This document shows positions 31,165 to 37,667 of a stretch of 50,741 nt of DNA, in pieces (within the stretch, counting starts at the first letter, position 1; each line of letters opens with the position of its first letter). This DNA comes from an uncultured Bacteroidota bacterium. GTDB lineage: Bacteria > Bacteroidota > Bacteroidia > AKYH767-A > OLB10. The notes under the pieces are model-generated. The model was not told the DNA's origin. It was given only the letters and a program-made list of their open reading frames with translations, and ran no database searches. The stretch is from positions 1 to 50,741 of the forward strand of contig CAADHD010000002.1 in the NCBI GenBank assembly GCA_900696575.1, written 5' to 3'. Both the position numbers and the translations under genes were made by a program.

Positions 31165-31241
31165 CTCCAGCATTTATCTTTTTAATTGGTTCAGAACATC
31201 ATCCTTCCAAAGAGCTTGATATTATTTTAATAAAGCAAGAA

Positions 31242-31657
31242 TTACCCCAGTACATCACTCGTTTTGTGCGCTCCGTCACAAAATGGCTTGTTTTTCGATA
31301 ATCCGCAACGGCAAAGAGCAATGTTTCCTTCCTTTACAGATTCGTTACCCTGTTCATCCACAAAAAGGAATTTTCCTTTAACAAGGTATGGGCCTTTATT
31401 GGCCACCTGAATTCGGGTTTCAGTAACTGAAGTTTGTTTCTGGTTTTCCATTTGATATGATAATGCTCCGAAGGGCATTTTTTTATTTGTTCAATAATAA
31501 TCTCTGTATCTGCATTTTCAGGTTTTATCCACGGTCTTTTCTTCGGATTGAATACGGCCGGCAGTCCTTTTGCACAAATTCCTGAATGGATGCAAAGAGA
31601 GGGCTTCCAGATAAATTTAAGCCCTCCCTTGTAATAATTTTTGGTTATTTCCCTCAG
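31242..31657 (-). pseudogene. Frameshifted YjdI-CDGSH iron-sulfur protein gene
   Basis: Two pieces of one gene. Reading from about 31657, the minus strand encodes a YjdI-type mono-cluster [4Fe-4S] domain: REITKNYYKGGLKFIWKP, then CIHSGIC, LPAVFNPKKRPWIKPENAD and IKKCPS. In another frame, from 31478 to 31242, it encodes the family continuation GALSYQMEN and a CDGSH domain with the ligand motif CRCGLSKNKPFCDGAH. Intact homologues read CPSGALSY without a break; here one base is missing near 31470. The first half also has no ATG, GTG or TTG start; the family start position is CTG at 31657. This could be a pseudogene, a sequencing error or rare recoding. The CDGSH half could be translated alone from ATG 31451 or 31478. 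Confidence 0.75.
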
Positions 31658-31662
31658 AAAAA

Positions 31663-32274
31663 TCAGTTAGGAACTGCAGTTAAGTCAACACTCAAGGTGA
31701 AATCATCATAAATCAGTTTATCACCTAAGTTGTCAAAGAATTTTCCGCTTCCGTAACGAACGTCAAACTCGGAGCGGTCAATTTTGATATCGGCTTTTGC
31801 GGTAATCATTCGATCTGTAACAGTCATAACTGCAGGAAATGAAATTTCTTTTGTAATTCCTTTGATGGTGAGATCACCTTTAATAGTGTAATTAGCCTCC
31901 CCGGCTCTTGATCCTGCTACCGGAGTAAAAGATTTTATTTTCAATGTTGCTTCCGGATATTTGGCGACACTGAAAAAATCATCAGACTTCAGGTGACCTA
32001 CTAACTTGGCATTATAACCGGCATCTTTTAAATCGGTACAGGTAATGCTGGTCATGTCAATCACAAATTCACCGCGAGAAGGAGCATGATGATCAACTAA
32101 TATGCTGCCTGATTTTATTTTAACATTACCCATGTGTTCGCCTGTTACTTTTTTGGCATGCCAGCCTACAGTTGATTTTTCAAGATCAGGACGGTAAGTC
32201 ATGGTTCCATGGGGTTTGAATGAGAAGAATAAAATGCTTGCTAAGGCGGTGATAAGAAGAAGTGTTTTTTTCAT
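31663..32274 (-). CDS. YceI-family secreted lipid-binding protein
   Basis: A 203-residue protein with a signal peptide (MKKTLLLITALASILFFSF) and the YceI lipocalin-like domain: DLEKSTVGWHAKKVTGEHMGNV, then GEFVIDMTSITCTDL, SDDFFSVAKYPEATLKIKSF, GDLTIKGITKEISFP and DRSEFDVRYGSGKFF. YceI proteins are periplasmic beta-barrels that bind isoprenoid or other lipids. The start is ATG 32274; the reading frame up to 32301 adds only a basic tail. Its stop is 6 bases from the head of the frameshifted Fe-S gene. Confidence 0.92.
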   Translation of the reverse strand: MKKTLLLITALASILFFSFKPHGTMTYRPDLEKSTVGWHAKKVTGEHMGNVKIKSGSILVDHHAPSRGEFVIDMTSITCTDLKDAGYNAKLVGHLKSDDFFSVAKYPEATLKIKSFTPVAGSRAGEANYTIKGDLTIKGITKEISFPAVMTVTDRMITAKADIKIDRSEFDVRYGSGKFFDNLGDKLIYDDFTLSVDLTAVPN

Positions 32275-32308
32275 TTTGTTTTTTGATTTGATGGTTAACA
32301 ACTGCGTA

Positions 32309-32316
32309 CGAAAATA
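32309..32316 (-). promoter_or_regulatory. Putative -7 box for the YceI gene
   Basis: TATTTTCG on the minus strand, TTCG variant, about 34 nt before the ATG. Confidence 0.45.
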
Positions 32317-32370
32317 GTTTTTGAAAAATTAAGATTCACTGTAGTGATAAAGAGAACACGTAAGTCTGCC

Positions 32371-32378
32371 TAATTTCG
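32371..32378 (+). promoter_or_regulatory. Putative -7 box for the alpha/beta hydrolase-like gene
   Basis: TAATTTCG, TTCG variant, 6 nt before GTG 32385 and 9 nt before ATG 32388. Confidence 0.45.
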
Positions 32379-32384
32379 CCCACC

Positions 32385-36305: not shown

Positions 36306-37667
36306 ATGAACATTACCAAAGAAGTTATTGCCGATAATAACGAACTGCTTCGCATTCAATTAAAGCCTGAAGATTACAACCCTGTTATCAATAAAGAAAT
36401 AAAAAAAACAGCTAAAACGGTTCAAATCCCCGGCTTCCGTCCCGGCCATGTACCTGAACAATTAGTCAGAAGCCGTTACGGTAAGGCTATTCTGGTTGAT
36501 GAAGTAAACCGCATGGTGATTGATGCTCTTTACAAGTATTTTGAAGATAACAAGATGGATGTAATCGGGCAACCCTTGCCGGTTCACTCCGAAAATGGAA
36601 AGAATAGTTTTGATAATCCCGGTGATTTTGAGTTTACCTTTGAAATCGGGTTAAAACCCAAATTTGAAATCCCATTGCCACCCAAAAAAGCTGTTGATTT
36701 CTTTGTGATTAAAGTAAACGAGAATGAGGTTGATAAGGAAATGGAAAGGCTTCGGGAAAGGTATGGAGAAGTTACCAATCCTGAAACGGCCGATGAGCAA
36801 TGCTACCTGCAGTTTGCCTTTACTTCTTCGGATGAGAATGGAAATGCAGAAGAGAATCCGGTTCAGTCAACAGCATGGATAAAAGCTGATGCCATAAAAG
36901 ATAATACCATCCGTAATAAAATTCTTGCCCTTAAAAAAGGAGAAAGTATTACCGTTAATCTGCTTCAAGCTGCCGGTTCTTTTGCAGAAGTATCAGCTCT
37001 TATCAATAAAAAAATGGAAGAAATAGAAAACCGCAGTCCGTTTTACCATGCCGAATTAAAAGTGATTGAGAAAACCAAACCGGCTGAATTAAACCAGGAG
37101 TTGTTCGATAAAATTTACGGCAAAGATGTGGTTACCAATGTGGAATCGCTTCGTGAAAAAATTTCGGAAGCCATAGCCCGCGAATACCGTTCGGAGTCGG
37201 AACATAAATTTCATCATGACATAAAAGATGTTTTGGTTGAGGAGTGCAATATCACCCTGCCCGATTCCTTTCTGAAAAAATGGATTGCCGGAAATTCTGA
37301 AAAACCTGTTTCGCCCGATGACATTGAAAAGCATTACCGCCATTATGCTTACGACATGAAGTGGATGCTTATCCGCAATGAATTGACAGCCACAAACAAT
37401 ATCACCGTAACAGAAGAAGAGCTGAAAAACTATGCGCGCCATTATGTAATGCGCATGTTCATGCAATACGGCCTTACCAGTTTCGATAATGTTAATCTTG
37501 AACCCATGGCTGATCGTTATTTGCAGGATGAGAAAAACCGGAATGATGCCGAAAACAACCTCATAGAAAGAAAAGTATTTGAACTGCTGGCTCAGAAAGT
37601 TAATAAAAATGAGAAGCAGGTAACGCTTGATGAATTCCTTGAAATAGTAAAAAATCATCATCACTGA
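36306..37667 (+). CDS. tig: Trigger factor
   Basis: Ribosome-bound chaperone that meets nascent chains. The 453-residue protein has the N-terminal ribosome-binding loop with the signature IPGFRPGHVPEQLV, a diverged peptidyl-prolyl isomerase-like middle domain (about 160-260) and a long helical C-terminal chaperone domain. Length is normal for the family. Followed by clpP and clpX, the usual tig-clpP-clpX order. It is preceded at 16 bases by tRNA-Leu and has no separate promoter box, so it probably shares the tRNA transcript. Confidence 0.93.
   Translation: MNITKEVIADNNELLRIQLKPEDYNPVINKEIKKTAKTVQIPGFRPGHVPEQLVRSRYGKAILVDEVNRMVIDALYKYFEDNKMDVIGQPLPVHSENGKNSFDNPGDFEFTFEIGLKPKFEIPLPPKKAVDFFVIKVNENEVDKEMERLRERYGEVTNPETADEQCYLQFAFTSSDENGNAEENPVQSTAWIKADAIKDNTIRNKILALKKGESITVNLLQAAGSFAEVSALINKKMEEIENRSPFYHAELKVIEKTKPAELNQELFDKIYGKDVVTNVESLREKISEAIAREYRSESEHKFHHDIKDVLVEECNITLPDSFLKKWIAGNSEKPVSPDDIEKHYRHYAYDMKWMLIRNELTATNNITVTEEELKNYARHYVMRMFMQYGLTSFDNVNLEPMADRYLQDEKNRNDAENNLIERKVFELLAQKVNKNEKQVTLDEFLEIVKNHHH

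Follow-up and report, generated by a model that had tools for sequence, protein, structure and literature searches.

Proteins in which a YjdI iron-sulfur domain is fused to a CDGSH domain are already known from the literature. Type 7 CDGSH proteins of subtype DC consist of a DUF1271 domain followed by one CDGSH, and types 7 and 4 are named together for the Bacteroidetes, in the part of the text of PMC3174974 available to us; the available part of PMC5859297 records the occurrence of Fer4_19 with CDGSH in archaea and bacteria. Our literature searches returned the pairing with CDGSH under the name DUF1271 and none under the name YjdI, and no report of a CDGSH frameshift in Bacteroidetes.

Here we describe a locus of this family in an uncultured Bacteroidota bacterium (contig CAADHD010000002.1 of assembly GCA_900696575.1), analysed within a stretch of 50,741 nucleotides that we call the window. 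The locus carries the same two domains as subtype DC, in the same order and on one strand, but where the type 7 protein, as far as the consulted sections of PMC3174974 describe it, is one polypeptide, the window has its domains in different frames, the first without a standard start. Taken alone, the CDGSH half has the layout of the type 4 single-motif proteins outlined in those sections, being a complete ORF with its own ATG and one CDGSH motif (three Cys and one His), as type 4 requires; its best matches, however, are the CDGSH halves of fusions. The YjdI half is the same domain as the stand-alone YjdI / Fer4_19 of 34 out of 71 relatives, from which it differs by the absent ATG, GTG or TTG start and by an out-of-frame tail. 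On balance, we regard the locus as a recently broken member of this known two-domain iron-sulfur family, in which the CDGSH half survives intact as a gene of its own. The locus most likely represents ordinary gene decay and no new mechanism.

Organization of the locus

The order on the minus strand is yceI (32301-31663), coding for a YceI-like protein (Pfam PF04264, E 1.5e-30), the YjdI/Fer4_19 (DUF1271) frame (31657-31334; PF06902, E 8.7e-20), the CDGSH [2Fe-2S] frame (31478-31242; zf-CDGSH, PF09360, E 6.4e-19) and lipB (31173-30439), an intact lipoyl(octanoyl) transferase gene that scores above the cut-off of NCBIfam NF010925 (PRK14345). The open YjdI frame extends from 31666 to 31334, with a conserved part at about 31469-31657 and an out-of-frame tail at 31334-31468, and five bases separate the end of the yceI TGA stop from its CTG. 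Open from 31490 to 31242, the CDGSH frame has ATGs at 31478 and 31451 (MENQ), giving a complete product of 78 or 69 aa, respectively, that contains CRCGLSKNKPFCDGAH.

Relative to YjdI, CDGSH is read in the -1 frame. The two frames meet within the motif CPSGALSY (31466-31484, together with an A7 run at 31484-31478), where IEQIKKCPS in the YjdI frame gives way to GALSYQMENQ in the -1 frame; nearly all relatives have CPSGAL or a close variant in a single frame. The sequence-only reading had placed the two domains in adjacent frames joined inside this motif, which the ORF analysis and the Pfam matches bear out, and had foreseen that an ORF caller would miss the first half: the standard ORF list indeed gives only a lone CDGSH protein.

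Fused and separate forms among relatives

A search of 61 genomes found Fer4_19 in 21, that of the window included, and a further search for relatives gave 51 loci, which lean towards the window because its own domain was the query. This produced 74 loci besides that of the window, 71 of them with a YjdI match to its domain; the other three (L022, L023 and L024) have no such match and enter no count. One locus, L025, agrees with L003 in both length and protein and was treated as a duplicate of that contig; it is excluded from the conservation and hairpin counts (n = 70) and included in the fusion, A7 and start-codon counts (n = 71).

YjdI and CDGSH share one open frame in 35 of the 71 relatives, no CDGSH match is present in the fetched stretch in 34, and CDGSH lies in another frame in the remaining two. 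One of these, L013, has two adjacent separate genes, the first closed by a stop and the second opened by an ATG; the other, from a Cytophagales draft genome (L026:2998-3404), is a YjdI-CDGSH fusion whose frame break is elsewhere, further downstream. Fused and separate forms thus both exist and the fusion is not universal, so that the alternative of domains that are always separate genes does not hold.

The YjdI frame

No ATG, GTG or TTG occurs within the conserved part of the YjdI frame, as had been claimed from the sequence. The CTG at 31657-31655 occupies the codon that is ATG in 38 of 71 relatives, and 64 of the 71 have an ATG within the interval from 7 codons before to 4 codons after this position. 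Only two relatives are without a standard start: L021, where the match lacks the N-terminal part, and L067, where bases are undetermined. All three conserved YjdI cysteines precede the frameshift, and each of the 13 columns that are at least 90% conserved among 70 relatives is retained in the window, so any loss of YjdI must be recent. The YjdI half is pseudogene-like in that its reading frame is disrupted relative to intact relatives.

From the trees (62 and 69 columns) only end branches were used, the window being unplaced (in no starred set). Its YjdI end branch (0.63) exceeds the median of 0.17; this is weak evidence, because intact fusions also show long branches (L015, 0.48; L012, 0.58; L017, 0.65). 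The CDGSH end branch is 0, against a median of 0.15, in a tree whose rows are the CDGSH parts of loci found through YjdI (L013, L026 and L067 omitted), with separate CDGSH genes elsewhere lying outside it. In codon usage the YjdI part scores a neutral +1.0 over 63 codons, the CDGSH frame +6.7 over 78 codons, and the other frames across YjdI about -17, stops counted; for the YjdI part the score is uninformative.

A hairpin in the YjdI frame

A hairpin of 12 bp (six G-C pairs, one G-U; 31595-31630, minus strand) begins at the 33rd base past the yceI stop, 28 bases into the YjdI frame. In 756 kb of this genome, with 90 aa as the minimum ORF length, hairpins with 12 bp or more and at least six G-C pairs number 0 inside ORFs (702 kb) and 15 elsewhere (about 54 kb), that of the window included, the YjdI frame being scored as elsewhere because it has no standard start. 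At 11 bp and five G-C pairs there are 12 inside ORFs and 28 elsewhere, and at this laxer setting none is found in the YjdI domains of the 70 relatives. Nine of the other 14 strong hairpins start 6 to 30 bases from the stop codon of a neighbouring ORF, as read from the list. The hairpin of the window has no good T run and is missing from the output of the terminator scan, in which loop length is restricted to 3-8. Since the T run is poor and the test was done after the hairpin had been noticed, we take the hairpin as supporting and not decisive.

The 5' arm of the hairpin codes for KGGL, unlike the relatives. It is nearly the reverse complement of the arm coding for the commoner KPSL, a pattern such as a template-switch mutation might leave.

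The CDGSH half

The Met at 31451 lies 46 residues ahead of the CDGSH motif. In separate CDGSH genes the distance from start to motif is 47 (L081), 40 (L080), 41 (L083) and 38 (L094) residues, and in the nearest fused relatives an internal Met lies 43 (L077), 41 (L078), 42 (L079) and 46 (L084 and L085) residues ahead of it. Some Met is present in the linker of 30 of the 35 fused relatives, and because it is so common the linker Met by itself is weak evidence for a separate start. Neither the closeness of this ATG to the starts of separate genes nor the hairpin had been seen in the sequence-only reading. Among the 61 genomes, the closest CDGSH matches are fusion halves (80% in G025, 72% in G038 and 76% in G028), and separate CDGSH genes rank after them (71% in G031, 65% in G009).

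Frame integrity elsewhere in the genome

To set the frameshift in the context of the whole genome, we aligned ORFs from 621 kb of G001, the sole other genome of the same genus compared, to 756 kb of this genome at 45% identity or more. Across the 121 G001 ORFs that matched (124 kb aligned) no frame change was found, and two were flagged for a stop codon near the beginning of the alignment (columns 19 and 27). The reverse comparison flagged four of 122 G001 genes, one for a frame change. The comparison recovered 86 of 121 simulated one-base losses, and 15 of 21 for proteins below 200 aa. The broken gene of the window is itself outside this set, because G001 lacks the gene. With no frame change in 121 genes, it is unlikely that a single 0.4-kb gene would be hit by a chance frameshift.

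This comparison replaced a codon-usage scan for frame switches, which returned none in 359 kb of this genome, because the scan recovered no more than 6 of 60 losses simulated in ORFs of 150 aa or longer. A one-contig comparison had flagged three of the 13 G001 ORFs that match the window. One of these genes is not broken, since the apparent stop lies upstream of the true ATG at 36306 and the gene is whole; the other two overlap longer G001 ORFs in other frames and are presumably chance ORFs.

Probable recent decay and alternative explanations

Under the reading that we favour, the locus would have begun as a YjdI-CDGSH gene of type 7 (subtype DC), downstream of yceI and in the same orientation. 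Its YjdI half would recently have lost the start codon and gained a one-base frameshift, and is probably no longer made as a working protein; the YjdI DNA would now be 3' sequence of yceI, carrying a strong hairpin that may act in the RNA. The CDGSH half is probably still made, as a one-domain protein translated from its own ATG at 31451 or 31478. We favour this decay because the start is absent and the frame broken within the same 190-base domain, an ATG is present close to that position in 64 of 71 relatives, and none of 121 other genes changes frame relative to the same-genus genome. It is further favoured by the absence of strong hairpins from ORFs and from the YjdI domains of 70 relatives, by the distance from Met 31451 to the motif (46), which is near that of separate genes (38-47), by the long YjdI end branch (0.63) beside a CDGSH branch of 0, and by the occurrence of yceI followed by CDGSH without YjdI in G009, G056 and G048. 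The retention of all 13 conserved YjdI columns counts against decay and fits only a recent loss; also against it are the long branches of intact fusions, the post hoc hairpin without a good T run, the neutral YjdI codon usage and the commonness of the linker Met.

The same retained columns, and the position of the three cysteines ahead of the frameshift, are what one would expect if YjdI were still made from CTG 31657 by ribosomes just finishing yceI, with a new tail of 44 residues, and CDGSH were made separately, as a working gene fission; CTG 31666, ATT 31663 and ATA 31648 are other near-cognate starts for such a product. It is common for YjdI to occur with no CDGSH close by (34 of 71), the two domains are adjacent genes in L013, and the CTG coincides exactly with the codon that is ATG in 38 of 71 relatives, with the yceI stop five bases off. 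CUG is, however, a poor start, being inefficiently initiated by wild-type or variant initiator tRNA in the available text of PMC11497404; moreover, the 12-bp hairpin starts 28 bases into the frame and the tail is unlike the ends of any relatives compared, so we consider two working genes unlikely. Slightly less likely still is a one-base consensus or assembly error in an intact fusion gene that starts with CTG, or a pair of errors. The genome is a draft in 35 contigs and the conserved residues are otherwise retained, as an error would have it, but no frame change was seen in the 121 compared genes, the join is not itself a long homopolymer (though the A7 run is a few bases upstream), and the missing start adds a further defect to the domain that holds the frameshift.

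The A7 run also offers a candidate slippery site, since A AAA AAA is in phase with the YjdI codons and a shift to -1 at this point leads into the CDGSH frame with no intervening stop, so that a programmed -1 frameshift or transcript slippage before the join could yield the fusion. Yet A7 is at the same place in 14 of 71 relatives, five of which (L009, L027, L054, L055 and L057) are in-frame fusions that need no shift, and the shifted product, KKMPFGALSY, would lose the third YjdI cysteine. The downstream RNA, assessed for structures without pseudoknots, folds no better than shuffles (z 1.03 over 80 nt, -0.30 over 120 nt), the split is not conserved at the site (35 of 71 are in frame, and the other shifted relative, L026, breaks elsewhere), and the missing start is left unexplained. 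Recoding is thus highly improbable, and of the three origins that the sequence-only reading had proposed, a recent lesion explains the locus best, an assembly error being less likely; the slippery run that it suggested looking for is present, and a downstream structure, pseudoknots aside, is not. It is also conceivable, if improbable, that the YjdI half has become the 3' region of yceI, the hairpin having arisen in a still readable domain and now ending or protecting the yceI transcript, with CDGSH as a free gene. If true, the locus would show a coding domain in decay, caught on its way to becoming an RNA control element.

Recent decay with survival of the CDGSH half would matter little beyond annotation, where an ORF list hides that the lone CDGSH protein is the remainder of a two-domain iron-sulfur gene. 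If true, it would mean that a fused pair can revert to a single CDGSH gene via a linker ATG kept by many fused relatives.

Gene neighbourhood in related genomes

The whole genome of this bacterium holds no second Fer4_19 match, and G001 has no match to YjdI, to CDGSH or to the YceI of the window. In G001 (L108) lipB directly adjoins the gene preceding dnaG, and we therefore regard the block of the window as accessory. The yceI-YjdI-CDGSH block (31174-32384) as a whole is absent from this same-genus genome. In G009, G056 and G048 yceI is followed by CDGSH with no intervening YjdI. In G009, which belongs to the same family, the CDGSH gene comes directly after yceI (L081:1495-2376) and a lone YjdI gene is found on a different contig (L011).
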